From Ampullaceana balthica (Eukaryota > Mollusca > Gastropoda > Lymnaeidae): a stretch of 64,000 nucleotides of DNA. Location: positions 248,001 through 312,000 of the forward strand of contig CALYLW010000212.1 in assembly GCA_944989445.1 (NCBI GenBank). The letters run 5' to 3'. The notes below the pieces were generated by a model, which searched no databases, was not told where the DNA came from, and was given only the letters and a program-made list of their open reading frames with translations. Of the stretch, positions 11,282-32,047 are shown piece after piece. Position numbers and translations under genes: made by a program. Position 1 is the first letter of the stretch. Every line of letters starts with the position of its first letter.

Positions 11282-14200
11282 AGTTTCATTACATGTGAAC
11301 GTACGATTGATAGTTAGTGAGGCATATGTCTGTGTTGGAATAAACGCAATCTCTTCTTTTGTTCAGCGTGACTTTATAATCACCTAATAATCTCAAAATC
11401 ACGCTTCTCTATAACGCCAATAATGTTTAAGACCTCACCTTCCATGCAGAATTTCCCGTAGCGGTCAGCTGCGCACTGGTAGCAGGTGCCTTCATAGTTA
11501 CATCTTGCCTCCAGACAACTGAATATACATGTTTCACTACACGTAGTCCCGTACTTGGGTGAGGGGCAGTCTACATAAACCGAAGCTTAAAATATATCCT
11601 TGACCCTTTTCATATTGTTTTATATATAAAATTTAGGTTCCAAATTATAATTGTTTGTTGTTGTTATTTTTGTGTGTGTGTGAATGCAAATATTTGTGTT
11701 TCATGGAAAACAACATGTAATATATAGAAAAAGTCTTTTTAAAATTTGCAATAAATTAAATCTATTATTAAGATTATGTATAGAAATACATAATTGCATT
11801 AAATTTAAATGTAATCACAGGAATTCTATAATTCAACCCGTCCATTAAAATCACGAAAAGAAAAAAAAACACACACATCTTTTGAAAATTGCATGAAATT
11901 ATTTTTTTTACAAAAAAAAACTATACATATGATTTAAAGATAGGCTTCGTCCTTTTAGTCAAAACCTCCAAAATTTTCTTTTATTGAATACCTCCAAAGA
12001 TTTCAAGCTCAGTGATTCCTATCTCACCATGGGTGATATTCAGTATGAACTTAGCCACAACCGGTTGATAAGGTAATGGAATACTGACAATGTTGTTGTC
12101 GTGCGCCTGAGATTGAAATTTAAAATCTTCACCATGTTCATTGAACAGATGAATCTGGAATGCTATATATGTGTAGTAGTTGTCTGAAAAAAATGGCAGC
12201 AGAAGTATAAAAAAACTATAAAATAATTTTATATAAATAAGATTAATAATGTTAAATGGGAAACAGTAATGTTAGGCTTTGTTTGGAATATAGATTAAAG
12301 AAATTAGTTCATTAATTTATTTGCTTAAGATTACTTAAGCAAACATTTAAATTATCATTTTCGATATCGATTTATCAATAATAATTAATATAAATATTTC
12401 TTCCACTAAGAAATCTCCTAGTTTTGCAGCTTATAATCTTAAGAGAAACAAAGCCCGTCCAAGGACGGTGCGCCATCTTTCGGTGGCATGTTGTAACTCC
12501 CCTTCAACAGCCGTCTCGACCGGCATACATGTGCATCACGTCAAAAATACTATTCATGTAGTTAAAATAAATAACTCGTAAAAACAGAGCTTTCGACTAT
12601 AAATCCCAAATCGCAAAACTGGAAATAAAGTCTTGGAAGAAATACCGTACCAAAAATAACTCGTTTTGAAAACACGCGTAAAAGTGATCAATATGATTGG
12701 CTGTAGGAGTAATATGTGTTTAAGGGACCAATCTCCATCGATGACAGGAGAGAAAATTGCCTTTTATTATATAGGATAATTTAGATATATAATAAATTAA
12801 TATTTTCTATATTATTTTAGCTTATAATCCAAATGCATTTTCTACTAAATAATAGATATTTATATAAAAAATATGAAAAGAAGTACTACAATAGTGCTAT
12901 TTCCAAATTATTCCATTAGGTAAATATAAAACATTGTTGTAAATGAAAATAACATTTAAAAGTACATGACCTCCAAGTTGCTGGGACCCGGGATAAGGTG
13001 CTTTAACTTTAATTATTTGTTTTTTTTCTAAATCCTAGTCACAATCCACAAAAATCAAACTTTCATTCACGTTTTAACACAGCGTCTCAGCGCAACAACC
13101 TACCAGAGTGAATGACAATCCTAGAAACAGACATGATTCGTGCCAACACAACTTGGATGGAATTAATCGACTGGCTACTTAACATCAAAATAGATTGACC
13201 GTGTAATTCCCCGTCAGTTAGAAGTTGTAGGGACTTTTTAATTTGATCTGAGACCTTGGTCACTTTCAGGATCTTGAATTTGGCGATCGTAGCAATGTTG
13301 CGATCTGAGAGGTTTCAAAAGAAGTTGGAAGAAAAACAAGCAATATAATTTTTGACATAATCAATTTTTCCCTTAAGCTGGACGGCCTTACGGCTGCGAA
13401 GATATCTGAACAGCAGTTGAGAATTAATGCGCAACAACTAAAAAAAAATAATTGCACCCAAAATAGATGCTATGCAACTAAAACATTAGTTTTATTTTCA
13501 CTTTGAAAACGAACAAACAAAACTCAGAAGTATCTTTTGTCATAAAAAAGAAAATGTAGTAATGGGTGAGGATATAAATACAAATCTCAGCAAAATTAAG
13601 GTTATCGGGGAAAAAAGTAATGTTTCCACAAAATCCGAAAGCTGTTACACACCTTGTAACGTTTCTCAACAACCCAACAATCGTTCAGATATCACCAACC
13701 CCCTTTAGCATTAAATTTATTTCAACAATAGTTACCTTTACGAGGAAAAAATAGAAATATTTATTTTTAATGTTTGTAATATAAAAAAAAACACACAATA
13801 ATTTCATTCTTAAATCGAAGAGTTATTGTGTTTCTTCTATAGTCCTTAGAGTTGGTTTAAAAAAATTGAAGACGTGCTAGCAAGTCAAGCTTTTATCAAA
13901 GTCATCTGAATGTAAACATTAATTTTAAACATACTTTCTGGATTTTAATTTAATTAATCTTAAAAATTTTTGTTTTAGGTTTTAGAATAATAAATGAGCT
14001 CCAGAACCATAATTCAAAGTGGTATAAACTTTAAATTCATTTGAATATCAACCGATTGTTTTACCACTTAATATGAATGATAAATATAATGCAAAGCATT
14101 TTAAATAAAAATATTTCATAAAATCACATTTTCGATGACAAATTTCGATGGCTATTTTTTTTAACAAGAAAGGAAATAACAAAAAAAAATAATTCACTAA

Positions 14201-17200
14201 GTATTTTAATCTGATGGCTTGAGTCAAATTGTCTCTTTTGTATTCTTACCCCCACTGATGTAAACAGAACACACCGACCCAAGGCCGCCCCAAGTCAGAT
14301 TGACTCGGCTAATGATGATTCCATTCTGACAGAATATGTCGAAACCGTTTTCACTGATTTGTACGACTCGCTGGTGAACGCAGTGTTTCTTGTCTATTTT
14401 ATTCCCTTGCACTAAATCAAACTCAAGCATCATAGTAGTCAGGTGAGCTAAAAATAGATCAGCAAGAGAAAAAAAGAAAGCTGAACTGCTTCTGAATGGA
14501 GTGAAAAATTAAATGAATACGGTTAATTACATCCTAAAAAGAATATTTTTATTGGCAAAATGTTTGATTTCTATAACTATTACTGTTACTTTCCACTTGG
14601 AATACATATACTTCTTTTGTAAATCCTAGATACTTCGTTTGAAACCGATGTAAGTTTTCACTTAAAAATATTATTTTTTTTATTAACCACGTTTTTATTA
14701 ACTCGCTTTCGTTCCTGTGGCATTGTTTGTGTGTCTGTCCAAGATTTTTCAAATCTGCCAACGTTAAATTAAACCACTTGTGATAGTCCTAGAGATCTCA
14801 ATATTTTACCACAGATAGATCTTGGATGACAATTCAGTATATCAAAATTTCAAATTGATCGAATGTACCGTTCTTAAAGTATTGAACTTTTTAGTTTATC
14901 TATATCTATACTAATAAAAGGCAAAGCCCTGATTGACTGACTGACTCACTCACTCATTCATCACTAATTCTCCAACTTCCGGTGTAGGTAGAAGCATGGA
15001 ACTTTGGAAAGTTGGTCAGTAGCCTCTCGCGATGAAAATTTGCGTAAAAGAATTTTAAAATTAACACTCATGGGGGCCAGGGGCCCAAAAACGTTTTTTT
15101 CCCCCTTATATGGCCTATATAAAATTTGAAAGTCATCAATTCTCCTATTTCCCGAGTAGGCAGAAGCATTAAACTTTGTGAAGTTGTTGAGTAGAAACCC
15201 GAAATGCTAACGGGCGAAAACAATATTAAATTATCACTTCCTGGGGGCCGGGGCCCAATTGAAGTTTTTTCCTAATATGAGCTATATAAAAACTGAAAAT
15301 CACAAATTCTCATATTTCCCGTGTAGGTAGAAGCTTGAAACACTGGGTAGTTCATAAGTACACTTCCGCGATGGTAACAAGCGAAAGAAATATATTTAAA
15401 TTATCACTTAATGGGGGCCGGGGGCCAAAATGTAGTTTTTTTCTTATATAAAAAACTTGCTGATCACTAATTCTCCAACGTCCCGTGTAGGTAGAAGCAT
15501 GAAACCTTGGGGAGTTGTTAAGTAGCCTCTCGCGACGAAATTTGGCATACAAGAATTTTTAAATTCACACTCATGGGAGCCGGGGCCCAAAACCATTTTT
15601 TTCCTTATTTGGGCTATATTAAAATTAAAATCACTAATTCTCCTATTTCGCGAGTACATAGAAGAATAAAATTTGGGAAGTTGTTGAGTACAATCCTGCG
15701 ATGGTAACAGACGAAAAAATATTTAAATTATTAATTCCTGGGGGCCGGGGGCCCAAAGGAAGTTTTTTCCTTATGTGATATATAAAAACTGAAAATCACT
15801 AATTCTCCTATTTCCCGTGTAGGTAGAAGCATGAAACGTGGGGTGGTTGTTAAGTACACTTCCACGATGGTAACAGGTAAAAAAAATATTTAAATTATCA
15901 CTTACTGGGGCCGGGGGCAAAAATGTAGTTTTTTCTTATATTAAAACTGACTCATCACTAATTCTCGGATTTCCCGTGTATGTAGAAGCATGAAACCTTG
16001 GGAAGTTGTCAAGTAGCCTCTCTTGACGACAAATGAAGAAAAAGAATTTTAAAAATTCACCTTCATGGGGGCCGGGGGCCCAAAATCGTTTTTTCCCCTT
16101 CAATTGGCTATATAAACATTTTAGAACGACTAATTCTCCTATTTCCCGAGTAGGTAGAAGCATGAAACTTTGGGAAGTTGTGGACTACACTTCCGCGATG
16201 GTAACAGTCGAAAAAATATTTAAATGTTCACCTACTGGGGGCCAGTGGCCCAAATGTAGTTTTTTTCCTTATATGAGCTATATAAAAAATAAAAATCACT
16301 AATTCTCCTATTTCCCGCTTGAAACTTCGGGCAGTTGTTAAGTAACATTCCGCTATGGTAACAGGTAAAATAATTATATAAATTATCAATTACTGGGGAC
16401 CGGGGGCCAAAATTATTTTTTTTTGTAATATTTAAAAACTGACTCAACACTAATTTTCCAACTTCCATTGAAGGTAGAAGCAAAAACTTTGGGAACTTGC
16501 TTAGTACACTCTTATGACGATAATTGGCGAAAAAGAATTTTAAAAATTTCACTCATGGGTGGCTGGGGGACCAAAAACGTTTTTTTCCGTATATGGGCTA
16601 TATAAAACTGAATCAACACTAATTCCTCAGCTTCCCGTGTAGGTAGAAGCATGAAACTTTGGAAAGTAGTGGAGTACCCTGCCTCGATGGTAACAATCAA
16701 AACAAATACAAAATTATCATTCACTAGGGGGCCGGGGGCCCAAGTGTATTTTTTTTTCTTATATGAGCTATATAAAACAGACTCATCATTAAATATTTAA
16801 CTTCCCGTGTAGGTAGGAGCATGAAACTTTGTGAAGTTGTTGAATACCCTCCCGCAATGGTAGCACACGAAAAAAGAATTAAATTATCAGCTCAATGGAA
16901 GCATATGAAGTGTGTCAATTTTTAGTTTTTGTTTTTGTTTTCCTACGGGACGACAGACAGACAGACAAGACGATGAAGTTAATATCTGTATTATATCCAT
17001 CATGATCCAGATTGAAATCAATTGGTGTTTTAAATTTTTGTTACGCGGGTTCTCAACGCTTACTGAAATCCTAATTTACCGGAGCAAAGCACGGGTATTT
17101 TGCTAGTTTTATTATATACTTGCTTTCGTTTCTGTCTGTTCGCAATTTTTCAAATCTGCCAACGTAAAATTAAGCCACTTCTGATAGTCCTAGAGAGCTC

Positions 17201-20200
17201 AAAATTTTACCACAGATAGATCGTGGATGATAATACACTGTATCAAAATTTAAGATCGATCGAATGTATCGTACTTAAATTAATGCATTTCTTAGTTTAT
17301 CTTTATATAAGCCTCTGTACCCGCCTGCCGTAGTTTAATTGCACGTGGTGAATTCACCCCGTGACCTCATCGATGATGAGGTGTTTGGAAAAATAAATAG
17401 AGGTAAAAAAATATTTTAAAAAACCACGTTTTTATTAGTGGACTAAAAAGACGAAAGTAATTTAAAAACTTATAAGTTCAAGTACTTCGATTTAATATGA
17501 CTAAAAACGTGGGGCGGGTGTTTGGTATAAAAATTAAAGATTTATAATTTAATAGGCAAAAGAGAGATCTATAAGTGAGAGAATGAGTGAACCGCATATG
17601 TTAAACCTCATAAGCGCCCGCCCCACGTTTTTAGTCATATGAAATGGAAGTACATGAACTTATACTTTTTAAATTATCTTCTTCTTTTTAGTCCACTTAT
17701 AAAAACGTGGTTTTTAAAAATAATTTTTTACCTTTATTTATTTATTATTGATTTGTACATGATTGAAGTGCCCTGTTACCTAAATAAATATTTGAAATCA
17801 AGGTGTCCCCAATGTTTTATTTTTAACAAATTTTAGAGCCAGTTAGTTGAACCATACAAGAAAGATAAATTTTATGTTGACAACAATATGTTTTGAAAAT
17901 AATCGCAAAGCTGTCATTGAATTAAACGTTCATTCTTTGAAGAATTATGGAAATTTTATTTCTTAGAGCTAAAATATCATACAATGAGCGGTAGATAATT
18001 AAGAGGGTATCAGTTCTTTGATATACTTTCAAAACTAAAAGTTATAACCTCCTGTTTTTTTTCTTGTGCTTAATATATACTTATTGTTATACTTATCATT
18101 GTAAATATCTTTTTTAAAAATCTCCCGAAATCAAACAGTAAAGTAAAGAAAAGCGCATTTAAGAAATCCATTACCATCACGTCCAAATATAATTCTGGCC
18201 CAAGTGTACACTATTGGGTGTCTGAGTTCAAATGTCAAGAGGTTCTCTTCCAGTAGCAAACATGTTGTGTCATCATTGTCATGAAGTGTTTCTAGGTAGA
18301 TCTTAGAAGAAATTGAGACATCACCTTAAAAAAAAATAACAAAAAAATAAATAAATAACGGTCGACATATAAAATCAGCTGTGTGATAATAACAAATAAT
18401 TTGTGTTTCATGTTTTATCTTGCCTGCTGAAGAAGAGTGTACCACTAAAGCAATGCGTTTGACTGTGTCGTTACTCATTATTAAAATATATATATATGTC
18501 TTTATTAGATGTAATATTGCGTAATATTATTAGATGTAATATTGCCTCAATAGCTGCTAATCATGTGAGTTTAACTCTTAGTATACGCTTTGATTACATA
18601 GAGGCGTCTTCTTATGAGAATTCTCTACTGGACTACTTGGATTTCACCGCAGCTAAGTGGGTTTTTTTATATTTCGTTTTATTCGTTTCATTTGTGTACT
18701 ATTTGTCCGTTGAGGAAGGCTCTTTGTCGAAACGTTCACTGTTGTGTTACGTCCTGTCAGGCCTACTAATACCCTGTTTTTATATTATACATTTACCGAT
18801 GATTGCGAAACGCTTAAACTCATAAATTCAAACAGTTTTAATTGTATTCTGGAATTAAAGTTTTTTTTTAAAATGCTCTTAAATACACGAATCTCAATAT
18901 TCGTATATTTTAAAATTTAAAGATTATCCAAAGAATGTAAAAGTTACTTACTGTATTGGCAGTCCAGAGAAAACCAGCCCACCTGACAATGTGTACCTGC
19001 TTTAATTAAATCGGACTCATTTCATTAGGCTGTTGTTATTTTTTATAGTATGCCAGAAACATTTCTATACTAAAGGCATTCATTTTTTTACGATACATTG
19101 AATAATTTATTAGGGAAATTTGAAAAATAGCTACGTCCCGTTTGGTTGGTTACACTGTTGAGGCGATAACATTTAAATGAATGAAAATTGGAAACATTTA
19201 TTTTAAAAAATAACATTTTATTTGATTACACTGACACAATAATACACATTCGGAGTGTTTTTCGCACTTTAAACACTAGACACAAATAAATACTTAGATG
19301 ATCAACTGAAAAATGCAATAAAAGTTTAAGACGTTTGCTCATAGAGGAAGAAAACAGAAGAAACAAAACAATCTAAACCAAAGAAAAATTATCTGGCGAT
19401 AAATTGCTACACAAAATGCATTCTATAACATTTAAATCATAGTGTGTTAGTAATACAAAAATATATCTTAACAACAACAACTTTAAGTTTAAAAACAAAA
19501 TTTAATAGTTTACCATAATAATATGAAGTGGTTATCTATTTTAAATGATTTTCTGACCTAGCGTTTCTAATGTTAAGATTTATTTTTTTTAAATCCCTTT
19601 TTTTTTGTTTAAATCTGTTTTTGGGATAATTTTAAAAAAAAATGTAATCATTGATGAACGTTTAGATTTCCTACTTTACTTGATGTTATTACCTCGTTTT
19701 AAAAGAAACTCACCGCTCGAACAATTTTTAAACAGAAGACAAGTTGTCTTGGTATCACTCGTGTCATTCTTAAGCTCCGGTTCATTACAATCGTCACAGA
19801 TATTACTAGTTACTCCAGTGACACCGGCTGGGGAATAATACAGATATTACTAGTTACTCCAGTGACATCGGCTGGGGAAAATACAGATATTACTAGTTGC
19901 TCCAGTGAAACCGGCTGGGTAAAAGTACAGATATTACTAGTTACTCCAGGGACACCGGCTGGGGAAAAGTACAGATATCACTAGTTACTCCAGGGACTCC
20001 GGCTGCGGAAAAGTACAGATATTACTAGTTACTCCAGGGACACCGGCTGGAGAAAAGTACAGATATTACTAGTTACTCCAGGGACACCGGCTGGGGAAAA
20101 GTACAGATATTACTAGTTACTCCAGTGACGCCGGCTGGGGAAAGGTATACATTAAAATACATCATAATGAAAAAAACAAAAACAAATTAAAGTAACTGCT

Positions 20201-22387
20201 TTTGTTATGTCTAACACTGATAGTTTGTTAACACCTTGTATAATTGAATATAAAATAACATTAATATTTAAGAGTTTGTATAAGGATATCTTGGATAATT
20301 CTACTCAGCAGTATGAAAATAATGTACATTAAGATTAATATCGACATACGCAAAAATATACGGTAAATAATCTTGAAGTCGTTTTATTCTAATACATGTT
20401 AAAAATGTTGAATTCAAGGTTAAGAATTTAAATTTTGAATTTCATAACTGTAACTAAAAGTGTGCATTACATTACTAACTTATGGGTAATGAAATTTGTT
20501 TTAAAAAAACAAAACACACAAATTGTGATGTAGGAGTGATGGTGACCTTGTTCTTAGCCCACATTTTAATAATTGAGAATTTATTTCTCATCTTCCTTCT
20601 CCAACAGTGTAGGAGTACTGATCATTTACAAGTGAATTAAATAGCCATACATAATCTCATCAAGATTACGTTTTTTGCTGGGTTATATGAATCTCTCTTC
20701 ATGTCATTTAATTTTTGTATTTAACGTTAACTACAATTAACTACAATTATATATTATAAAAATTATTTTCTAATCGATCAAGGACTTCGACAGAGATTAA
20801 TTTGAGGGGTCTACCGAAAAAACAGCAAGCCGATTATATCGGCTCCGATACCAGGGTATCGGCAATATCGGTATCGGTAGCACGCAAAGGTCCCGATATT
20901 GACGTCACCGATATTTTATAATAAGTGACATTTTGACCTAAAAAAAAATTCAGAAACAAAATTGATCATTTAGATTTATAAATATCTAAAAAAAATAATA
21001 TATCGATCCCTTTACCGATATTGAAAGAACCAAAAGCGTCCAAATATTAATATGTACAGCCACGATACAGCGAGCCATGTGCCATCATATTGCTTGTGTT
21101 TGAGTAGTTTGTAAACATATTAAATTAATATTAATCTATTTTTAAAATTGTTTTTGTTATTATTAATAAAACATGTCTTGGTGTGTTATTTTATCGCGAT
21201 TATTACGGTATTAATTTATTGTATCTGAAAACAAAATCTCCCATCCATTTTCCTGCACTTTTTAAGAGTAAAAGAAACAAGCAGGAAGCGCAGTAACGTA
21301 GAAGATTGAACACGAAATCCGGATGACCGTAATCGACACACACTTATAATTCAAACGAAGTTGTACGATTTGTTCCTTAATTTACGTTTGTCTTAATTAA
21401 ACCAATAACCTGACATATAAAATATAAATAATTACGAGTCATGAATTTAAGAATGACTTCAACATCATCGAAGCTGTGCAGTGCAATTTGGGGATTTCTT
21501 TTTCGGTTAACTCTCTAGATATGAGCAAAGAAAACTGCAACATATGCACTGCTGCAGTTTCTCGTGTTTTAATTTAGTATTAGGGTCAGGATTAGAATGA
21601 TTATTAGGATGTTTAGAGTTTGGATGTCATTCTTCAAAATCATCTAATTTGACTATTGGTTTGTGTCCTAACAAATACCAATATCGGCCACACACACACA
21701 CAATAATATATCGAAACAATCGGTACAGGCAATATCGGAAAAAATGCTTATCTGTAGACCCCTAATTAATGTTTAATAATATTTGCTAGCAACTAAAAAA
21801 AAATTACGTCTAAATAAATATGAAGATTGACTTTACTAAAGGCGGTTGTTCGCGTGCTATGGAGGTAGTGTAATAATAAGATTTAATTTGAGTAAATTCT
21901 TAGAAGGAAATGTAACCGTGTGAACAAGCAATGAGTCACGCGTGGTTGATACCCAAAACATGGAATACCCTTTTTTAAATTCAAACAATAATAGTCATTT
22001 GGTTTGTCAGATAATTTTTTTTTATTGATGAAGAAATTTTACAATGACTTAAGTAGGCCCTAAAGTATCAATATATCAATATATAACTTACGTATGTTAC
22101 ATGCGAGTGGATTGTTGTACACATTGCAATCTTCTACACATGAGCCATTATCTCTTATCAAAAAAGAGTTGTTGCAGTTCTGACAGCTCGTGCAGTCTAG
22201 CCCCCAAGTACCACTGATACAGTCTAGGATACATGCCATAATACAGTGGGTTAGTTTTAAAATATCCTACAACGAGGACACATGAAAAAAAAATTAAGAC
22301 TGTACCGAATTCTAAATTTTGAAATCTGGCTAGAGCCGAATATGTAGAAATGCCCAGATTCTGGATTTCCCTGAGCCAGAGCCATTA

Positions 22388-22455
<68 letters not shown>

Positions 22456-25400
22456 GGCTCTACAGGCCAACCCGAATTTGGCCGGATTTATGAAGTGAAA
22501 TCGTGCCGGATCCGGTAGTGTAAAAATGGCCGGATTCCAGTTTTGCCGAGCCCGAGCGGAAATCCAGTACGCCTCTAGAAACAATTAATATAAATATATA
22601 TTTTATAACATTAAATTAAAAATTAAAGAAAAATATTTATTTTTGTTTATGACAATATTAGATTTTCTAGTTCATCATTAAGTTTTTTTTTAAATGATGT
22701 ACATGAGGATATACCTATTTAAAACGGAATTATGAAGCTTTGCAAAACGAACATTAAAATTTAGAAATACTATGTGCTGAAATTATACTTAGTGTAGATC
22801 AAATAGATTGCATATTTAAAATATTACTTTTGTTTTAAAATTTCACATATTTGGATATCAATTTGACTTCTAAAATAATGAGGCAAACTGATTATATAAT
22901 TTTTTTTTATTTTTAACGTTGACATTTCAAGTATCTAGATCTGTAAATAACACCAAAAAAATAAATAATATGTATATCATTAGCTCATCGTCTGCTATGA
23001 CATGTATGCTGGTGCTTATATAATTAAATTTCAATGATTAAATACACATTTCAATGTCTAAATATTTGACGATCTCTTAATGAATAATATCCTAATTACA
23101 CATACAAATTTATTCAAGTCTGTCATTGATTTTAAGGGTAATCATTTATCCAGTAGATCGCTTATATTTTATATACGGTGTAACCAATCAATGAACAAAC
23201 CTCCAAATAACTCCATCTCACACAACACAAAACCTTGTTCCCTATCGCTGTCATGCTCCCCAGTCATCATGAGTGTCACACTTTGTATAGCTTCACGCCA
23301 ACTCTTGGCATTCAAGATATCATAAACAAACTGCTGGCTTGTATTTTTGCACGTGTATTCAAAGACTAAACTGTTGTTTGCGTTAACGCTTTGAAGAGTT
23401 AATCCTGTAAGATATAAGTACAGGATTTTTCATTGCACGTTTTTACAAAATTGACTAATAACCAGGTACATCTGTTAAGGAATAGAGTAGTAATTTTTTT
23501 TCTTGTTTTGTTATTATTTATACATTTAAAAAAATTAACTTCGTTAAGTATGCATTTATTTTTAATAACTTAAAATAAATGCTTATGCTATATATATATC
23601 TAAAAATAATTTGTATATGTTATAAATAAATCATTCAAAATAAATTCATCGATGTGTCAGAATATGTCACAAACAATCTATATATATAATTCTCATCGTG
23701 GTCGGACCCTGCGAGGCAACAAGAAGCTGCATGTGCAACAGAGCATGACGAATGACCCTCGCTCGGGTCAACTAAACATACTTACCTGTTGACAAGCAAA
23801 GGTAGTGGATGGGTAACTAACAATGGCCCTTGCGTTGCACTTGCATTGTTCCTTCACAGAAAACGTGATATTTGTAGTGTACTTGGTAACACGTCCGCCT
23901 CATGCGAGGAAGGTCCGGGTTTCAAGCCCCGGCGAATATATTGTTTTTTTGTGTGTTTTTTTTAATGTCTGTTTGTGCCTGTTCTTTTACTTCTTTATTG
24001 CATAGAATACGCCGCAGACTGGCTCATCATAGACGGTTGGGGGGGTGAGAGTACGGACACAAAAAGCAGCACCAAGTAAATAACAAATAGCGAGCAAAGG
24101 TGAAGACATGCACACTTAGGTTGTTGTTACCCGCCTCCCATTTATTACTACCATCCCTTAAACATACACTTTGTTTGGCCGATCCTAGCGAGGGTTAGTC
24201 ATATTTAGGGTTGTTAATTGCGTGGTTTTTGCTGTTTTTTTTTGAGAACTGATTATCGATTATGTAACTCCGATTTTAAACTGATTATCGTTTTACAGCA
24301 GACTTCATAGAAGTTAGGGGTGTACCGAATTTCACCTGCAAATGTCGCGAAAATAAACAATGAGTTGGCAGTTCCCCACCCCCCCCAAACCAACGTTCAC
24401 TCGCGTTGTTTTGATTTCTTCGTGCTGTAGTTTGTGTCCGTTCTTTCTCAACGTTCTTTGCACTCCCCATGAGCAAGTCTGCGGCGTATGCAACATCACG
24501 GAGCGTCTAGTAACATATAAAAAGCTTTATTCTTTAATCTTTGATTTACAGCCCTGCTGTGTTTAGCCAGAACAAACACATGCACAAAACATTGTGATTG
24601 CAATTTATCGGCTCATTCTGTTAACACATTTTTGTATTTTATTGAAAACGTACCATCGACATCTAGCAGTGTGTAAATTCGATATCGCGTTATTCTGTAC
24701 TCCCCTTCTAACTGCACAGTCCACGATCGGCTAACAGAACTGTTATCTGCTGCTGCACAGTGCGCGTTGTCCAATTTATTGTCTGTAATTCCATCAACAG
24801 CTTTTAATGCTGTAAGACCATCTCCGGGATTCGAATAAAATGTGTTCTGTCTTAAAGCGACATTTCGACCTTTTAAAAGCATCAAAAGAAAATAACGTTT
24901 AAATTATTTTTGACATGCTTGTTGTTTTATACCATTTGTAAAATGTCTAATGATGTGGTATGTATTTTAGTTTCTAAGAGCTTCTAGTGCCATTATTACA
25001 GGGCGGTATAGTTTCAAATTGTCCACTATCTAGTGGTATATAAAATTAAAATATCTGATCAAATATGATATTGCAATAAGTTGTTTAAAATTATTTTTGT
25101 TAATATAAATAACGATATATTGTTGAGCTTAATGTCATTAAGCAATTCAATTTAGTATATTAATTATTTTTTACAAAAATATAAAATGAACACATCACAT
25201 TTTCCCTCTAGATCTGATTTACAAAATAACAAATATATTCGTAAAAAAATAATGTTATTATACAGTTCGCTTATGAATCAATTAATATAAGTATTTCTAC
25301 ATTCACAACAGTACAGTAAAACAATGACACTTAGGGTATCCTGAAGGAACTCGCCTACCTCCATTGATATGGAACGAACACAGCGCTCCAAGAATTTCAC

Positions 25401-26702
25401 CTCCCAATGTTAGTTCCTTAACAGCTTCCGTTAAATCACAGTGAATCTCAAATGTTCCAACATCAACATTGAGCATTTTTCGGTTTGCGCAATCAAGAGC
25501 TCTTGTTTTATCAGAAGATTTGAAAGTTAAACTAATCAAACAAATATTACCTGTCGAGTAAAATGCAAATGAAAAACAAATGTTGATATTTAATGTTTTT
25601 CCCCTTTTCTTTATTCACTAAGTTTTGGTATAATCGTTAATAGCAATTTTTACGAATGGTACATGCTAAAGTTCTTACAGGTATTCCAATAGCAAAAACC
25701 TACATGCAAATCTTTGCAAATATTCAAGCATAACCATCAATATGTAGCATAGCTTAAGGATAGCTAATACAAAAATCTTTTGGCGACATAAATGATAAAT
25801 CTTAGAATCTCAATTTTGATAGAATAAAAAGGTATGAGAAGGCCAAACAATGTCAGAGGAGGTAACAGTTGGAAGTAATGTGTTAATCTTGTGCGAGATT
25901 GATACCACTGCAAGAATCGTATAAATGTATATATTCATAAAAATTATCAATATTATTATTAAACATTAGTTGTGTTTTCTTAAGTCTTAATACAACGAGC
26001 GTAGTAAAATTAACCATTCCCATATCCACTGCCCCTAAAATGTTAATAAACAATTTTCATTTTTACTACATGAGAACAATTATCGAAAAAAGCCAAGTTA
26101 ATACATTTTCTGTTCGTAATGCTTCATAAAGTATGAAATGGTTTTCAGGTTGCGAATTGTATACTTTCATGGGTATAACTAACTTGTTCTCCTTAGTTCA
26201 ATATGCCATTGAGCACATACGCAATCAAGATAAATACTTTCAACCATTATTTAAAGACCAAAAAGTTGTACACTATGGTTTTAAATTATGTATTGTATGA
26301 CACATATCTATGAACCTCACTTGTTGTATTTAGTTTAATGAGCAACCAGGTAAAGACATACGGTTGGCTCCAAGTGACTGTTACGTTACTGACAGTGTGG
26401 TGAGCATTGCAAGTCGCGTCGTCATTATCAGTCAACCATGAAACATTGTTCTGTGATGGGATTATGTTCAGTGTTGCATCTGGAAATGCTGCCAAATCCT
26501 CTAAACAAAAATGGAAACTTTAAATAAATACAATAAAAACATAGATCTGTAGATTACAGTAAAGTAGTAAATCTGGATACAAATCCTTAAGTTTCAATAA
26601 ATCAGTTTACAGACAACAGCATTAAATGTTGTTATGTCTCGGATAATGTACGGTGCCTCGTATTACGAAAGAGAGAAAAAGAGAGATAAAAAGAGGGAGA
26701 GA

Positions 26703-26733
<31 letters not shown>

Positions 26734-29527
26734 TGAGGGGGAGGGAGAGAGAGAGAGGCAGGTTGATCCTACATGTGGAAGAAAATCATAAGCCCCGAGC
26801 CTAGTGCTCTTCGTGGGTCTTCCTGGAAGACCCTCCCAGCTATCTGGCCCCCTCCCCCAGAAAAGGACGTTGACAGCTGGGAAACCCCCCCCCCGGAGCG
26901 GTCGCTTCTGAAGCGGCTAACTCGGCATCTAAGACAGAAAGTCGAGGATGCCTCCCACTAAGTTGACCTCACAAGGAGGGGTGGAATTGCCTTACTACGA
27001 CCCGCTACCACTTCGGCGCCACCCGGCAAAGCATACGAGTCTCAATGGTTAGGTTCGCCGCAATGCGGGCAGGTAAAAAGTGCGATTGTGTACAGTGCAA
27101 ACTATGCTAAGATTTACTACGCTTAGTGCTACGCTATATCACGTAGTTTTGAAGGTGTGCCATGCAGCCTCGCTTTTATTGGCCTTTCTAAACAGCAGTT
27201 AAATATTTCTTAGAAAGTCGAGCGTTGAACTTGATAGTTTTCTTGATAAGAAAGACAGAGGGAATATTTTCTTATATTACATTATATTATTTTGTCATTT
27301 CCTTCAGCTAATACGTGAAATACACAAATGTTTTGTGTTTTTCTCTAGTAGGGACCGATTGTCAAATTTCATTAATTTCGTTGTTTGAGGTGTTGAACTT
27401 TTCAGGTTACTAACTAGCTTATAACTGTAATTACTGAGTTTTTAGTCTCTGTGATAGAAAAAATTTTCTATGTATTTAATAACATTTAAAAAATAACCTA
27501 GAACTGCTGCTACACCGATTTTAAAACAATGTTGCAATGTTTAAAATGTGATGTAATAATAATATTTGAACAATTAAACTGCTAACCCGTATGAATTAAG
27601 CTGTAATAAAACAATGCCGTAAAAACAAAGTTTTTGACTATAAATCCCTTATATTTGAGACATAATTAACAGTATTGATCATTTTTAAACGCGACAAACA
27701 TTTACAGACTGAATCTGTCTTAAATCAACTTTGCTTCATAACCCTGGGGGGGGGGTGGGGGGAGTGGGGAAAAGTCTGGTCACCGATCGCTTGACCGAGC
27801 TCAGCGTGACACGTAAAATGTTAACAAAAGCACGCCGGTACTTCGATGGGTCGCGTCAACGCGTCAACTCAAACTCTCAAGTGGAATAAAAACAATAACA
27901 AACAGTGAATTTGAATTACATACGTCATATAAGAATAAACTAAAAATGCATACATTTAATTACGGTAAGTCGATCGATCTGAAAATTTGACACGATGCAT
28001 TTTTAGGTGTGACGGATCAGTATGGAAAATTTCAGCTCGATCGGATCACGGGAAGTGGGTCACTTTTTACTTTTGTTTTTCCGCCCGACCGACGTACGAA
28101 GACAGACAAGATTTCGAAGTTAATATAAGGGATTTAAAAAGTGTTAATAGTTGTAAAGAAGTACATATGTTTAAATCAGGCACTCTATGTCAAATATTTT
28201 CACAGTTGAATTCCTGTCTTTTAGACTAGTTCGAACATTATGCTACTGGATTGAAAAGCCTTAACTACATTTTCTAAACTTTAGTAACTGTTTCAACGTA
28301 ACTGTTTCAAAAAACTATTGTGTTTTTCACAACTTTAGTAACTATTTCTACGTAACTGTTCCAAAAAAAAACTATTGTGTTTCTTTAGTGACTCACGATA
28401 TTGACATCCGGGACCGAACCATCCATTCTCACATTTTGTGTCATCTGCGCATTGACCACTGCTGCTGCATTCCTCGTCACAATGACAATTGTACTGACAC
28501 GCGGGTCCAAACCAGTCATGATCACACGATACGCAAGCTATAGTTAGAAATTACTTAAGTTGAGTTTAAGTCTATTTATCTTTCATTTTATTTTTTATTT
28601 TGAAATTGTGTATGTGTTCCGAAATTTACCAATATGTGTATAAATATTTGTTTACACAAAGATTGCACAGTAGCAGGCAAAAGAAGTAAAGCATGCCCCA
28701 CATCTTCAAAGTTATACTTAACGATGCATAACATGCATAGATCACCGTATAATAATTGCTATATGATATGTTCTGAAAAGTAAGTTTAGGGCGGACAATG
28801 CTGAGGGACAGCGGAATCAGTAATGTTTTTATACAAAGAATCTTATTATAAATTTTGATAAATTATTCACAAAACGTTACGCCTTATGGCATTTCTTATT
28901 GCAAAGAAGCGATATTGTATGAATCAGTCATAGACACACAAAGCTCTTCTAAAGATACTGTAACTTTGGCAAAACAGCAAAAAGGTATACGCATTCCCAG
29001 ACGGGCCTCTAAAGTTTTAGCAGTATTCAGTAGAAATAATTGACCTGGTTGTGTGAAATATTTCTTAAATAAACTTAGGGAAACGTTTTCAGTTTTAGGA
29101 ACAATATTACGTCATTTCAAGATGATAAGTTTTTTTACGTCACATGAGTTCATCTCATTTATCCACACACGTTTCGATTAAAATAACAGTTTACACAGAA
29201 CATTACTAAAATTGCAACGATTGGTAAAAATGAAAAGAATTATTATCAAATTATTCAAAATGAAATGGTCATTTTCACAGACCCGTATTCTCCAAGTGTG
29301 GCCGACCAATACCTCTTCCAATCAGGTAAGGAAACACACCCCTTCATTTAACTGAATAATGCACTGTCGTAAACTGCTAACCAAGGGCGTTTCATTGGAC
29401 AGTTAGGTCTCTGCAAAAACTGGCGCATACCATGTTTCGAAATGGGACAGTTGCAATTTTATTATACACTTACTTACCAGTTATCATATTTATCAGAATA
29501 AAGATGAGTCTTGATACCTAATATCAT
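2282..29527 (-). CDS. Receptor gene A: EGF-like and galactose-binding-like type I membrane protein (16 exons, assembled)
   Basis: I assembled this gene from exons at 29478-29527, 28397-28537, 26321-26500, 25359-25550, 24654-24869, 23201-23404, 22092-22223, 19714-19827, 18952-18996, 18175-18324, 14250-14447, 13104-13304, 11992-12183, 11439-11570, 8951-9124 and 2282-2400. Each has AG/GT borders and phase 1 at both ends, and the exons from 28537 down give about 796 residues without a stop. Order: signal peptide, EGF-like, two galactose-binding-like domains (each an N-half and C-half exon), EGF-like exons, two more such domains, EGF-like, one membrane helix, acidic tail. C-halves end in LCEMELFGG-type motifs typical of F5/8C/fucolectin folds; N-halves carry DNDDTTC or AVDG. 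It is probably a cell-surface carbohydrate- or ligand-binding receptor. Ligand and signalling are unknown. The first exon appears frameshifted. Confidence 0.75.
2800..2973 (-). mobile_element. SINE, tail-side half, split by the Ginger-like element
   Basis: Minus-strand copy of the tRNA-derived SINE seen complete at 48465. It runs from the (TCTTA)n tail through cgcattacccagcagcc to cattcggagc, where the inserted element begins. The other half is at 8655-8742. Confidence 0.75.
2974..3209 (+). repeat. Left terminal inverted repeat of the Ginger-like element
   Basis: Matches the inverse of 8419-8654. It carries four copies of ggccagaatatacccc, alternately facing each other, plus the palindromes acccgggt and ggcctaggcc, so the end itself can fold. 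Confidence 0.75.
3900..4310 (+). pseudogene. Integrase remnant of the Ginger-like element
   Basis: The open frame (with start upstream at 3785) shows GGNFGRDKTATVCEQCYW, then an ICKSCQ-like KACQKC zinc-finger end, a linker NKKTPPLNNIPV, and then jumps to ASTRCTPFEIMYGRKAKLP. The first part is the H2C2 zinc-binding domain and the last is the region after the DDE core (known in relatives as TPF-x-x-x-FGR-x-x-LP). The roughly 150 to 200 residue catalytic core that should lie between is deleted, so it cannot be active. The frame shifts near 4260 and then runs into the 41-bp array. Confidence 0.65.
4312..7018. repeat. 41-bp minisatellite, 66 copies
   Basis: The unit runs tggaatagtccctacctcgt plus 21 further bases. 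The first copy begins at 4322 and the last at 6987, exactly 65 x 41 bases apart, so no net insertions or deletions have occurred. Variation is almost confined to the linker (ggt, ggg, gag or gaa before ccctg) and to gatgg versus ggtgg. Each unit has stop codons in rotating frames, so the array is not coding. It sits where the integrase remnant would continue. Confidence 0.95.
7020..7480 (+). other. 3' internal region of the Ginger-like element
   Basis: Holds short open stretches in broken frames (for example KVKVYNNKQGSS) that may be the degenerate C-terminal part of the integrase gene. No intact gene seen. Confidence 0.35.
7488..7945. repeat. 11-bp tandem repeat (aactacataac)n
   Basis: About 40 units of aactacataac, with occasional 8-base shortened units and ataac to atgac variants, ending at the LINE 3' tail. 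Confidence 0.9.
7948..8117 (+). mobile_element. LINE 3' end with (TAAGA)n tail
   Basis: Reads WNSLPEE-like codons (ggaatagtttgcctgaggaa), then the conserved 3' UTR (gactagacataaaccaatga) and cttctgtatagaaggagcgt before a gataagataag tail. The same end occurs at 32047 and 47388, and the SINE shares it. Confidence 0.7.
8419..8654 (-). repeat. Right terminal inverted repeat of the Ginger-like element
   Basis: The inverse of the left repeat. It is nearly identical over the outer 150 bases and more diverged further in; both copies share ttaaactc followed by tttcttaagtag near the inner edge. Confidence 0.75.
8655..8742 (-). mobile_element. SINE, tRNA-head half, split by the Ginger-like element
   Basis: Contains the minus-strand B box (ggattcgaacc) and the A-box region. 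Together with 2800-2973 it makes one SINE that lacks about 25 bases compared with the copy at 48465. Confidence 0.75.
8743..8950. other. Intron 15 remainder of gene A
   Basis: The part of the last gene A intron between the SINE and the transmembrane exon. Nothing recognised. Confidence 0.4.
8951..9124 (-). CDS. Gene A transmembrane exon
   Basis: This is a phase 1-1 exon of 174 bases with acceptor cactgattcag and donor G|GTATTC. After an acidic/polar juxtamembrane stretch, residues VPYIMWFLLVTCVVLISCW form one helix, followed by a basic stop-transfer run (STKKGSPKLKK). If the donor is not used the frame ends three codons later at TAA (8940), giving an almost tail-less receptor. The spliced form continues at 2400. 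Confidence 0.78.
9125..10270. other. Intron of gene A, no other feature
   Basis: AT-rich intron between the transmembrane and EGF-like exons. A G-tract lies at 9171-9180. No coding signal seen. Confidence 0.45.
10279..10338. repeat. (TA)n microsatellite
   Basis: About 60 bases of pure TA, bordering the 5' end of the Helentron-like element; a matching tract borders its other end (11208-11268). Confidence 0.95.
10339..11208 (+). mobile_element. Helentron-like non-autonomous element, long copy
   Basis: Starts TCCTATATTATAAAAGGC and ends with hairpins CGTCCttGGACG and ACGGGCtttgttGCCCGT. Short minus-strand copies at 12445-12775 and 58660-58995 have the same ends and only about 335 bases. This copy carries an extra 500-base GC-richer segment (10550-11045) between ggatttatagcaaaaagctc and its repeat, so it is nested. 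TC start and terminal hairpin suggest the Helitron/Helentron group; no Rep/helicase is present. Confidence 0.5.
11208..11268. repeat. (TA)n microsatellite
   Basis: Pure TA dinucleotide tract adjoining the 3' end of the Helentron-like copy. Confidence 0.95.
11439..11570 (-). CDS. Gene A membrane-proximal EGF-like exon (132 bases)
   Basis: This is a phase 1-1 exon with acceptor ttatgtag and donor G|GTGAGG. It encodes DCPSPKYGTTCSETC, then RCNYEGTCYQC and YGKFC, a six-plus cysteine EGF-like module. It corresponds position by position to gene B's exon at 61427-61558. Confidence 0.85.
11992..12183 (-). CDS. Gene A galactose-binding-like domain 4, C-terminal half
   Basis: This exon is 192 bases, phase 1-1, with acceptor tttttttcag and donor G|GTATTC. 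It starts DNYYTYIAFQIHLF and ends GITELEIFGG. The usual LCE of the terminal strand is TELE here, so this domain lacks that cysteine. Confidence 0.78.
12445..12775 (-). mobile_element. Helentron-like element, short copy
   Basis: Minus-strand copy from TCCTATATAATAAAAGGC (12775) to ggacgggctttgtttc (12445). It lies in a gene A intron between the domain 4 halves. Confidence 0.5.
13104..13304 (-). CDS. Gene A galactose-binding-like domain 4, N-terminal half
   Basis: This exon is 201 bases, phase 1-1, with acceptor gaaacctctcag and donor G|GTAGGT. It begins DRNIATIAKFK and contains LQLLTDGE, aligning with GRNVALRQ and AVDG of domain 2. The conserved cysteines of domain 2 are not evident here. Confidence 0.7.
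14250..14447 (-). CDS. Gene A galactose-binding-like domain 3, C-terminal half
   Basis: This exon is 198 bases, phase 1-1, with acceptor ttttag and donor G|GTAAGA. It reads LTTMMLEFDLVQGN and ends SVCSVYISGG, the same terminal strand as GALCSFHINGG in domain 1. Domains 1 and 3 are therefore of one type (A), and domains 2 and 4 of another (B). Confidence 0.75.
14685..14895 (+). repeat. Dispersed repeat R1, copy 2 (left of the Helitron)
   Basis: Runs from accacgtttttattaactc through ctagagatctcaa and cacagatagatcttgg to tttagtttatc. The copy at 17107 on the other side of the Helitron has the same order and direction. Confidence 0.7.
14905..17106 (+). mobile_element. Non-autonomous Helitron (2.2 kb)
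   Basis: Begins TCTATACTAATAAAAGGC after an A and ends GTATTTTGCTAG before a T. These are the known Helitron hallmarks: 5' TC, 3' CTAG and A|T insertion. A GC-rich hairpin (accggagc aaa gcacgggt, imperfect) lies just before the end. The interior is about 12 tandem, diverged repeats of roughly 160-170 bases, each with ctaattctcc, gtaggtagaagcatgaaac and ggggccggggcccaaa. No Rep/helicase gene is present, so it depends on a relative elsewhere. It lies in a gene A intron. Confidence 0.8.
17107..17300 (+). repeat. Dispersed repeat R1, copy 3 (right of the Helitron)
   Basis: A direct copy of 14685-14895 immediately right of the Helitron end. Confidence 0.7.
17400..17734. mobile_element. Fold-back element
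   Basis: Arms 17400-17521 and 17613-17734 are inverted copies (ttttagtccac, aaaaacgtgg, cccgccccacg) around a 90-base centre. A solo arm lies at 34951-35062. The outer ends share accacgtttttatta with repeat R1. Confidence 0.6.
18175..18324 (-). CDS. Gene A galactose-binding-like domain 3, N-terminal half
   Basis: This exon is 150 bases, phase 1-1, with acceptor ending aag and donor G|GTAATG. It contains LHDNDDTTC and VYTWARIIFG, matching the acidic loop and following strand of domain 1. It is shorter than the domain 1 exon (180). The C-half lies 3.7 kb away because the intervening intron holds a Helitron and a fold-back element. Confidence 0.75.
18496..18825 (+). other. ORF of unknown origin, possibly retroelement-derived
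   Basis: A 109-codon frame beginning in a TA tract, in the antisense direction inside a gene A intron. It has one hydrophobic stretch (WVFLYFVLFVSFVYYL) followed by SVEEGSLSKRSLL. DNA of the type gaagaaggc...cgaaacg is common near the ends of some retroelements, and a second related stretch lies just upstream (18425-18470). I do not recognise a family and doubt it is a gene. Confidence 0.3.
18952..18996 (-). CDS. Gene A 45-base EGF-tail mini-exon
   Basis: This is a small phase 1-1 exon with acceptor ctgcag-type and donor A|GTAAGT. It encodes THCQVGWFSLDCQY, the same GWF-x-x-x-CQY ending as the exon at 28397-28537. It joins the next exon to read CQYSDVSI, parallel to CQYQDLAAF in the first half of the gene. 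Confidence 0.75.
19714..19827 (-). CDS. Gene A cysteine-rich (EGF-like) exon with duplicated acceptor
   Basis: This exon is 114 bases, phase 1-1, with donor G|GTGAGT. It encodes GVTGVTSNICDDC, then a TTCLLFKNC group. Its first 32 bases belong to unit 1 of an eight-unit 44-bp array; the acceptor used here (attattccccag) is the one nearest the exon body. Starting at any upstream acceptor of the array would reach TAA in the second unit, so only this start keeps the frame through to the exon at 18996. Confidence 0.75.
19796..20146 (-). repeat. Eightfold 44-bp repeat of a splice acceptor and exon start
   Basis: Units begin at 19796, 19840, 19883, 19927, 19971, 20015, 20059 and 20103; seven are 44 bases and one 43. 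On the minus strand each reads acttttccccag followed by CCGGTGTCACTGGAGTAACT and atatctgt: a polypyrimidine tract, AG, and the first 32 bases of gene A's exon 19714-19827. All eight retain the AG despite substitutions elsewhere. Confidence 0.9.
20147..20795. other. Gene A intron, nothing seen
   Basis: AT-rich intron sequence between the acceptor array and the hAT-type MITE. Confidence 0.4.
20804..21764. mobile_element. hAT-type non-autonomous element (961 bp)
   Basis: Ends GAGGGGTCTACCGA and the inverse TAGGGGTCTACAGA, flanked by near-identical 8-bp duplications ATTAATTT and ATTAATGT, as in hAT elements. Near both ends it has repeated ccgatatcgg-like motifs (tatcggcaatatcggtatcg). No transposase remains. 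It lies in a gene A intron. Confidence 0.65.
22092..22223 (-). CDS. Gene A EGF-like exon (132 bases)
   Basis: This is a phase 1-1 exon with donor C|GTAAGT. It encodes DC-x-G-W-G-x-DC-TSCQNC and a second cysteine group NGSCVEDC. It has the same length, 132 bases, as the EGF-like exons at 11439-11570 and 61427-61558, so these three are the same module after duplication. Confidence 0.78.
22395..22451. repeat. (TA)n microsatellite
   Basis: TA tract between two stretches that share inverted similarity (ggatttccctgagccagagc and gattccagttttgccgagcc), perhaps another small fold-back element at about 22300-22580. Confidence 0.85.
23201..23404 (-). CDS. Gene A galactose-binding-like domain 2, C-terminal half
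   Basis: This exon is 204 bases, phase 1-1, with acceptor tatcttacag and donor G|GTTTGT (weak at +3 and +4). It ends FVLCEMELFGG, the terminal strand signature of the fold. A broken copy with a stop and net two-base loss is at 38523-38724. Confidence 0.82.
23690..24010 (+). mobile_element. Possible tRNA-derived SINE (Met-CAT-like)
   Basis: Around 23877-23936 the sequence has tRNA-like D, anticodon and T arms: ttggtaacacgtc, a seven-base loop ctcatgc with anticodon CAT, and ccgggtttcaagccccgg. The acceptor stem does not pair, so it is a SINE head or tRNA pseudogene rather than a working tRNA. Confidence 0.4.
24654..24869 (-). CDS. Gene A galactose-binding-like domain 2, N-terminal half (fucolectin-like)
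   Basis: This exon is 216 bases, phase 1-1, with acceptor cttttaaaag and donor G|GTACGT. It begins GRNVALRQNTFYSN, contains LKAVDG and a WTVQLEGEYRITRYRIYTLL strand. NVALR-T-x-S, AVDG and W-VxL are the classic landmarks of fucolectin/F5/8C-type galactose-binding domains. A decayed copy lies at 39290-39503. Confidence 0.85.
25359..25550 (-). CDS. Gene A galactose-binding-like domain 1, C-terminal half
   Basis: This exon is 192 bases, phase 1-1, with acceptor ctcgacag and donor G|GTAGGC. The end reads GALCSFHINGG, matching the terminal LCE-E-x-x-GG strand of the fold. Extending the exon to 25550 restores the phase; the nearer AG, in gattag, would give an immediate stop. Confidence 0.72.
26321..26500 (-). 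CDS. Gene A galactose-binding-like domain 1, N-terminal half
   Basis: This exon is 180 bases, phase 1-1, with acceptor tttgtttag and donor A|GTGAGG. It encodes DLAAF, then WLTDNDDATC, then a WSQPYVFTWLLIKLN strand, the usual front half of an F5/8C-like jelly roll, where an acidic DNDD-T-C loop precedes the first long strand. The C-half is the next exon at 25550. Confidence 0.75.
26690..26758. repeat. (GA)n microsatellite
   Basis: Purine-rich GAGA tract with scattered interruptions, followed by an unusually GC-rich stretch to about 27080. Confidence 0.9.
26760..27085 (+). other. GC-rich island, probably a transposon fragment
   Basis: Contrasts in composition with the surrounding intron and contains a C-run (26887-26894). 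Short open frames only; I cannot name the element. Confidence 0.35.
27607..28140 (+). repeat. Dispersed repeat R2, copy 1
   Basis: About 530 bases shared with 62882-63320, including gtttttgactataaatccct, acgcgacaaacatttacaga and gatttcgaagttaatataag. It has a G-tract and a cgcccgaccgac segment. Class unknown; the latter segment resembles parts of the Helentron-like copies. Confidence 0.65.
28397..28537 (-). CDS. Gene A EGF-like exon
   Basis: This exon is 141 bases, phase 1-1, with acceptor ctatag and donor GTGAGT. It encodes a cysteine-rich stretch with the repeated pattern WFGPxCQY followed by CHC, ending in GWFGPGCQY. That is one full EGF-like (MEGF/laminin-like) repeat plus the start of a second. 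It splices to the galactose-binding-like exon at 26500 to give CQYQDLAAF across the junction. Confidence 0.8.
29478..29527 (-). pseudogene. Gene A candidate signal-peptide exon, one-base frameshift
   Basis: On the minus strand an ATG at 29527 leads towards a good donor (G|GTAAGT) at 29478. The frame that joins the next exon in phase 1 is strongly hydrophobic (RLIFILINMIT), as expected of a signal peptide. The ATG, however, is one base out of that frame: there are two Gs (29517-29518) where one would give 16 codons plus one base. That is the same 49-base length as the signal exons of the Kazal genes nearby. Either the gene has lost its signal peptide, the assembly has an indel here, or the true start lies elsewhere. 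A degenerate relative of this stretch lies near 34.4 kb. Confidence 0.45.
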
Positions 29528-30700: not shown

Positions 30701-30959
30701 TGTTTTACGTAACTGAGTTAAATTCAAATTTATGATTAAAATAAATGTATGATTAAAATGTAAATTAATCTATCCAGATTTGTTATCTCAAGGTATATGC
30801 TAGTCAAAGAAAACACATATAAACTTGATCAAATTAAAAACAAAAATAACACAATATGTTAAATCTCTAAGGTTATAAACACTACGGATAAGAAGTCGAA
30901 AGAGCGATGTACAAACTCGAAAACATAGGAGGTTTAACAATAAGTAAAAATTATTTTCC

Positions 30960-31055
30960 ATATGCCAGAACACATGAATGGGAATCCATCTTTTCGATAG
31001 GCTTAATTAAAATGAAAGACTAGAAATAAAGCATGAATAAGCGTATTAGGCCTCA
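30960..31055 (+). mobile_element. LINE 3' end fragment
   Basis: Resembles the local LINE tail (ttaaaatgaaagactagaaa, aataagcgtattaggcc) but is diverged and lacks the repeat tail. Confidence 0.45.
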
Positions 31056-31369
31056 TCTTCAGTATATTTGATGAGTTAAAAATATATACGATAATTAATG
31101 TGCTATTATTTTGTAATATATTTTTTCTCTTGCAAAATTATTATTAATACATATTTTTTTGCAAATGTAAACTGTAATACTAAGGACTTATATAATCGTA
31201 CAAAAATTGTGTCCAGTAACCATGACTTTGGATGTCATAAGTCTGGATCATCGTATTTATTTTTGAGCTTATTATTGTTGATAACAGATAGAAACTAACA
31301 AGAAAAGTGCCAACTGTTAAGAGTGACAACTAAAAAGAAATACATAAATTCAAAATATTTCATTCATGA

Positions 31370-32047
31370 AGAATAACTTTTCAAAAATAAAGATTCAAAA
31401 TAAATACTTAGAAGTACCAATAAATGATAAATTGTCATAGAATTCACATGTCAATGATGTAATCACGAAATCAAACAAAATCATATCCTTTATACAGAGA
31501 AATTTTAAAGACATAATAAGAAGAAAAAAAATAAAATGCTACTTCACTTTGGTGAGACTTGTACTCGAATGTGCATCTTCTGTATGGGACCCATCCAGCA
31601 AAGAAAATATCGATAAACCAGAACAAATCCAAAAAAAGAGCTGCCACATTCATTACTGGAGAATATTTAAAACTGACAAGAATAACAAGATTATTTAAAT
31701 CATTAATCCTTGAAACTCTAGAGGATAGAAGAACCAAGAGTAAAGTAGTAATTATACATAAAGCAATTAATTCTAAATTTGAAATACAACACAAAGATAA
31801 CTCAATACAACCCAATGATATACAAAAGGATAAAAACACCTCTCTTATTCTGTATGCAAGAATAGACACATACACATGATCGTTCTTCCCATCCGGAATT
31901 CGGGCGGGTCATGCGTTGCCTGAAGAACATGTTGTCAACATTTAAAACTCTAATTAGAATGTAGGACTAAACACAAACCACAGATAAGCCTAGGACGCAA
32001 TAATCTTCTGTATAGTATGAATGTTTGTAACAGATAAGATAATATAA
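31370..32047 (+). pseudogene. LINE reverse transcriptase C-terminus and 3' end
   Basis: In broken frames the sequence reads KYLEVPINDKLS, SHVNDVITKSNK, FIQRNF and ECASSVWDP, then after a frameshift RAATFITGEYLKLTRITRLF and LETLEDRRTKSKVVIIHKA. These are the end of a non-LTR retrotransposon polymerase, after the RT core. The 3' UTR and gataagataat tail follow. 5' truncated, as usual for LINEs. Confidence 0.75.

Follow-up and report, generated by a model that had tools for sequence, protein, structure and literature searches.

Eight head-to-tail copies of a 44-bp minisatellite lie across the splice acceptor of a probable exon, Eg, in a receptor-type gene of the snail Ampullaceana balthica, each copy repeating the end of the intron and the start of the exon. 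The array lies in a stretch of 64,000 nucleotides (the window; assembly GCA_944989445.1, contig CALYLW010000212.1, here C212, positions 248,001 to 312,000 of the forward strand). We consider it likely, judging from the DNA sequence, that this is a mirage-type boundary minisatellite, where splicing would mostly use the exon-adjacent site or skip the exon, nonsense-mediated decay (NMD) would provide shelter, and copy number would drift almost neutrally. Mirages are tandem repeats over exon-intron boundaries; the available text of two amphioxus papers reports them for Adh3 and the globins BflGb6 and BflGb9 (PMC3087553) and, in a further lancelet case, for PGBD5, with Adh and TnC cited alongside (PMC3902484). 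Our literature search, with most subscription papers outside it, returned no mirage described in a mollusc, the cases in the papers found being from amphioxus; a gastropod paper (PMC3862624) deals, in its available text, with intronic microsatellites and not mirages. As far as the literature searched extends, mirages in a mollusc, and their recurrence within one receptor family, are new.

The original prediction, made from the letters of the window, described a minisatellite of eight acceptor and exon-start units, and the array is indeed real by TRF (period 44, 8.0 copies, 92% matches), with its end at 20147. Each unit consists, as predicted, of 12 bases of intron end (a polypyrimidine tract and AG) followed by 32 exon bases, and the AG is intact in all eight. 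The first exonic bases after these AGs are 20134, 20090, 20046, 20002, 19958, 19914, 19871 and 19827; the expected addition of 44 bases per unit holds for six of the steps, whereas the step from 19914 to 19871 is 43 bp. Seven of the units differ from their consensus at 16 of 308 positions, with no difference in the AGs. Since the 14 AG letters would stay unchanged by chance with a probability of 0.47, their retention is no evidence of selection, and the reading of the kept AGs as a sign of selection was rejected. The interior units 2-5 are homogenised, all reading TCCCTGG, and the edge units have diverged, with TCACTGG in units 1, 6 and 7 and in the exon, whose own 32 bases differ from the unit consensus at one position.

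On its outer side the array is flanked by ordinary intron ending CCTTTCCCCAG, which fits a single original boundary that was duplicated. A two-unit probe searched against the 1.1-Gb genome matched four stretches, all within the array; this confinement to one place argues that the array grew locally, from the Eg boundary, and the chance landing of a dispersed repeat at Eg was rejected. We suggest that a 44-bp stretch (the last 12 bases of the intron and the first 32 of Eg) was tandemly duplicated at the Eg acceptor, and that the array would then have expanded internally, with homogenisation of units 2-5. Given that Eg is an exon, the array shares with mirages its tandem units over the boundary, a retained splice signal and a homogenised interior.

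According to the available text on amphioxus, mirages there are likewise minisatellite-like copies spanning a boundary, occur in acceptor and donor types, keep the splice signal in many units and are homogenised in their interior, and the BflGb6 array also joins the 3' end of an intron to the 5' part of an exon. The snail array differs in phylum and gene family, and its 44-bp unit compares with units of 150-160 bp in BflGb6 and 10-72 bp in Adh3. For the amphioxus arrays, variation in length and splicing of the regular kind have been reported (the acceptor-type array of BflGb6, with 6 units in one haplotype and 3 in the other, reportedly splices normally; PMC3087553), whereas the snail array is known from the sequence of one assembly. 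Human tandem repeats at exon-intron boundaries, found in segmental duplications, may yield new introns, according to the part of PMC2812944 available. The tandem copies at a boundary are common to both, but the snail 44-mer reads AG/CCGG and, on inspection, is without GTRAGT (its best GT context is GGA/GTAACT), so that it supplies acceptors only. Intron gain by AGGT tandem duplication, in which each unit brings an AG and a GT donor, does not match this array.

Table 1. Modelled exons of the host gene, landmarks of the array, and comparable arrays at other exons of the family (window coordinates unless a locus or contig is named).
Feature	Position	Strand	Basis or remark
Exon E1, signal-peptide-like start MWGMLYFFCLLLCNL	28658..28703	-	
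Exon Ea, double EGF	28397..28537	-	comparison + splice signals
Exon Eb	26321..26500	-	comparison + splice signals
Exon Ec	25359..25550	-	comparison + splice signals
Exon Ed, F5/8-type galactose-binding	24654..24869	-	Pfam match below cut-off
Exon Ee	23201..23404	-	comparison + splice signals
Exon Ef, EGF-like, phase-1 donor GTAAGT from 22091 (22092 = last exon base)	22092..22223	-	
44-bp minisatellite, 8 copies, over the Eg acceptor (mirage-type array)	19796..20147	-	TRF + sequence
AG + first exonic base, unit 1 (outermost; tract is array-flanking intron sequence)	20134..20136	-	
Unit 6, 43 bp, CAA for TAA, one base lost from tract	19872..19914	-	
Exon Eg (probable), 114 nt, phase 1-1, PGVTGVTSNICDDCNEPELKNDTSDTKTTCLLFKNCSS(G), donor GTGAGT	19714..19827	-	
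Mini-exon Eg2, 45 nt (GTHCQVGWFSLDCQY)	18952..18996	-	apparently the remnant (3' part) of a double-EGF exon of Ea type
Exon Eb', second module	18175..18324	-	comparison + splice signals
Exon Ec'	14250..14447	-	comparison + splice signals
Exon Ed'	13104..13304	-	splice signals + start resembling Ed; no homologue match
Exon Ee'	11992..12183	-	splice signals + resemblance to Ee
Exon Ef', EGF-like	11439..11570	-	comparison + splice signals
Paralogue D, 51 bp x 9.2 over acceptor of an Eb'-type exon	L006:6234-6703 (C212:318234-318703)		
L037, 33 bp x 3.8			acceptor in every unit, without exon bases
L046, 39 bp x 10.2 over donor			array reaches end of fetched piece
L031 / L035 / L034, 89 bp x 3.1 / 3.1 / 2.1 over donor	contig C13		like paralogues
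C884, 85 bp x 4.6 + 56 bp x 4.9 (L028/L029)	C884:31500-36500 + 30900-31499		two donors, one strand

The phase-1 reading into the exon is open solely from the exon-adjacent AG (19827), as had been claimed, and closes from all seven upstream AGs. Every upstream site had been expected to meet TAA in the next unit; a stop is indeed reached in seven of seven cases (after 20 codons in five), but from 19914 it is a TAG in the next unit, after 21 codons, and the frame entered at 19958 finds CAA instead of TAA in the next unit and runs for 49 codons to a stop in the last unit. Each of the eight acceptors has 12-13 pyrimidines in the 15 bases before the AG, and two or more T-N-A-Y motifs lie 17-35 nt upstream of each; the 12 other acceptors of the gene have 7-13 pyrimidines in 15. 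The exon-adjacent site, with 12 of 15 compared with 12-13 for the others, is no stronger than the seven upstream, so the sequence does not force the choice of site. The predicted picture of eight equivalent 3' sites, seven of them leading to nonsense, thus held at the level of sequence, where the upstream seven appear as good as the exon-adjacent one. To judge by its sequence, each unit is a full 3' splice site. We propose that the spliceosome mostly joins the Ef donor to 19827 or skips the frame-neutral Eg, and that messages made from the other seven sites, with their early stop, would be cleared by NMD. If so, the array would be sheltered from selection and its copy number could drift with little effect. 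For poorly spliced new introns, shelter by NMD is proposed in the available text of PMC2809761.

That the array sits in a receptor-type gene was supported, at the level of sequence, by homologues and a gene model. Six-frame comparison together with splice signals gave a model of 14 exons on the minus strand that opens at 28703 with a start resembling a signal peptide and closes at 11439 with an EGF exon; all its introns are in phase 1, and its 714 codons contain no stop. Two modules of EGF and galactose-binding exons are separated by Eg, then Eg2, and the whole reads as an intact EGF/galactose-binding (MEGF/fucolectin-like) receptor-type gene. The Ee' donor itself sits within a 26-bp x 2.0 repeat (11952-12003). 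A 394-residue reading (six exons and Eg) has 27 homologous proteins at E <= 1e-3, the best at E 5.5e-62 and 35% identity, every one of them carrying a gastropod label (Biomphalaria, Lymnaea, Bulinus, Physella, Elysia, Plakobranchus and Bradybaena); their names are MEGF11 or MEGF6, fucolectin, cell death abnormality protein 1, hypothetical or uncharacterised. Pfam matches of the gene to EGF and F5_F8 all fall below their cut-offs, and a search with residues 300-660 of the model gave no homologue at E <= 0.001. The model stops at Ef', and no phosphatase match lies on C212 among the matches listed, so the gene may lack a phosphatase tail. In Biomphalaria sudanica, according to the available text of PMC12297450, genes with like domains lie in SudRes1, a region linked to schistosome resistance; these MEGF/galactose-binding genes resemble the snail family in domain make-up and in forming clustered paralogues, but some of them are receptor phosphatases.

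Several features of the sequence indicate that Eg is probably a real exon. In a strict screen (phase 1, GTRAGT, open frame) of 44 kb of the minus strand, Eg was the sole stretch to pass; since exons Ea-Ef and Eg2 of the same gene fail this screen, it is specific without being sensitive. Beyond the array, the remaining 27 codons of Eg have a codon log-odds of 4.6, within the range of the gene's other exons (averages of 0.4 to 11.1, scored in-sample); of 4972 open intronic windows, 1.6% score as much. The GC content of Eg is 0.40 vs 0.26 in the near flanks, although a GC content this high is found in 21% of all intronic windows. An exon of this kind might nevertheless be in the course of being lost, the array weakening Eg so that it is mostly skipped, a reading that we regard as rather unlikely. 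The length and phase of Eg preserve the frame on skipping, which would therefore be harmless, and all internal exons of the model are phase 1-1; Eg has neither the conserved cysteine pattern of EGF nor WFG. Its codon use, however, is still coding-like.

We consider it unlikely that Eg is not used at all, in which case the array would be intronic, Ef would be joined directly to Eg2 (both in phase 1) and the eight sites would be irrelevant. The screen, the codon score and, within the limit given, the GC content all speak against this reading, and what speaks for it is a lack of relatives. Compared with the Ea-type profile, Eg scores 0.4 bits, a value that 665 of 1000 shuffles equal or exceed, and with the Ef-type profile 1.0 bits (558 of 1000), leaving the idea that it is a second Ef-type EGF exon unsupported. 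In the genome, 84 matches are listed for the Ef-Eg-Eg2 peptide, most of them owed to Ef and many of them paralogues on C212; no separate Eg-like exon is present among them, and four weak matches, either extending past Ef or falling within that part, proved on reading not to be Eg-like. Nor was an Eg-like exon found between Ef and Ea' of paralogue B by the screen used, which returned one candidate, without cysteines.

Eg2 also bears on this reading. In a relaxed search 25 of the 27 homologues align to it (best E 0.011), and Eg2 alone scores 20.6 bits against the Ea-type profile, compared with 19.0 bits for Eg and Eg2 together. Shuffling Eg while retaining Eg2 gave a score as high in 366 of 1000 trials, and in 956 of 1000 when the cysteines of Eg were fixed in place; the proposal that Eg is the intact 5' half of an intron-split Ea-type exon is unsupported. 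Within 18952-19021, the frame upstream of the Eg2 acceptor is in register with the complete Ea' exons of the paralogues until it runs into stop codons, so that Eg is not simply the missing half of Eg2. The register suggests that the second-module EGF exon decayed at its 5' half with a shift of the acceptor, and that Eg may be either a lineage-specific exon in its own right or one that is dispensable.

Boundary arrays of the same kind are present at eight further exons of the snail's receptor family, at acceptors as well as donors (Table 1). The array of paralogue D has ten AGs, and from eight of the nine upstream sites the reading meets a stop; the nearest upstream site is open in the stretch read and would add 17 residues, the unit length being divisible by three. 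At donors, distal sites lead to stops in nine of nine cases in L046 (one of the nine without GT), two of two in L031 and one of one in L034; in L035 the reading seed was not found, so its frames are unscored, and the exon end and a GTGAGT donor were seen. The copy numbers of L031, L035 and L034 amount to a copy-number change between duplicates. At the two EGF exons of C884, two of two and three of three array sites lead to stops, and one further unit, missed by the search pattern used there, has lost its GT. Phosphatase-domain matches lie about 16-21 kb further along the same strand from the C884 arrays. The arrays at L067 and L050 were rejected as mirages because they merely abut the exon and their units lack its AG, and L033 was left out as a degenerate 71% array. 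EGF-type receptor exons of this family have many matches on C212, C13, C16, C538, C491, C783 and C1001.

These arrays do not, however, cluster at exon ends. Exon ends, taken as the ends of tblastn hits and therefore approximate rather than confirmed junctions, are crossed by arrays in 9 of 210 cases (4.3%), compared with 5.9% of random non-coding spans and an average array coverage of 2.4% in exon interiors; without the window's own array the count is 8 of 209. With stricter arrays (period at least 20, at least three copies) the figures are 6 of 212 ends, 4.4% of non-coding spans and 1.4% of exon interiors. An enrichment at exon ends was therefore rejected, the rate being about that of the background. 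The sample consisted of 40 loci (L030-L069) out of the 84 matches, picked by their place in the list and not by arrays, with L026-L028 (three of the best matches) and 264 kb of the window's contig; 42 of 44 sequences gave a tblastn hit, and of 109 hits four, lying more than 80% within arrays, were dropped in the first setting and 105 kept. The nine crossings include the window array, which was the reason for examining the locus, the two-copy Ee' repeat and the degenerate L033, and three of them are paralogues that probably reflect one event; the arrays of D and L037 were spotted by eye and stand outside the nine. The sampled parts of the genome are thus rich in minisatellites, which hit exon ends about as often as non-coding DNA. 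Crossing at the background rate is expected if one intact exon-adjacent site suffices and arrays are tolerated, and a regulatory role is not required.

The original prediction held that copy number could tune receptor output or drive NMD. This idea has a partial human precedent in the intron-18 VNTR of ABCA7, whose 25-bp unit starts with a donor. In the available text of PMC5954066, retention of one unit causes a frameshift at about 2%, constant across VNTR length, and longer VNTRs are accompanied by more skipping of exon 19 and lower expression. The ABCA7 repeat resembles the snail array in carrying a splice signal within the unit, in that use of another unit's site brings a frameshift and premature stop, and in the idea that length affects output; it differs in that the signal is a donor and not an acceptor, and in that the effect on exon 19 skipping was measured in ABCA7. 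It speaks for a weakened Eg, in that skipping increases with length, and it is a point against our preferred reading, as it shows that such arrays can leak and accompany altered splicing.

In the strong form of this idea, eight equal acceptors would share the splicing, seven of them would poison the message, and the number of units would set output through NMD. The stops reached from seven of seven upstream sites that look as strong as the exon-adjacent one are in its favour, as are the stops from the distal sites of L046, L031, L034, C884 and, mostly, D, and the ABCA7 VNTR whose length tracks lower expression and more exon skipping (PMC5954066, available text). Stops are, however, the default where repeat units carry intron sequence, the AGs are retained at chance level (P 0.47) and exon ends show no excess of arrays; moreover, the amphioxus papers report that regular splicing goes on undisturbed by mirages (PMC3087553; PMC3902484, available text), and single-unit retention in ABCA7 stays at about 2% whatever the length. 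We therefore think this form quite improbable, and tuning by copy number, or a role in NMD, is not favoured by the sequence. That tandem arrays are prone to mis-assembly, as happened to one amphioxus mirage in a draft genome (PMC3087553, available text), makes an assembly artefact conceivable but extremely improbable here, the units being distinct by point changes and one deletion, the array lying deep inside a 1.34-Mb contig, and similar arrays occurring elsewhere. A mirage-type array, tolerated as it grew, is more likely than a proven switch.

It is highly improbable that length-variable arrays of complete splice sites, acceptor or donor, across these parasite-recognition-type receptors set the share of poisoned message for each paralogue. 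If this were true, differences in unit number would let receptor output vary quickly and reversibly from one individual to another. As genes with like domains lie in the resistance region of B. sudanica (PMC12297450, available text), variable splicing arrays there would be worth checking. Acceptor and donor arrays in one clustered, diverse family also make a system for testing how a choice is made among near-identical acceptors, and they bear on whether unit number matters and on a possible contribution of such arrays to exon loss or intron gain.

Other features were seen in the window and elsewhere. On the minus strand, 38524-38737 and 39340-39504 match Ee and Ed, being 41-68% identical to the window gene and one of them carrying a stop; they are the remains of a duplicated module. 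An Ef'-type EGF exon of a neighbouring paralogue lies at 61338-61664 (minus strand). Downstream of a paralogue's EGF exons lies an open frame that resembles part of a retroelement (L026:4350-4790). The window also holds a tandem array of about 170 bp in the Eb'-Ec' intron (14960-16889), and a 41-bp satellite of 66 copies with 97% matches (4316-7019).
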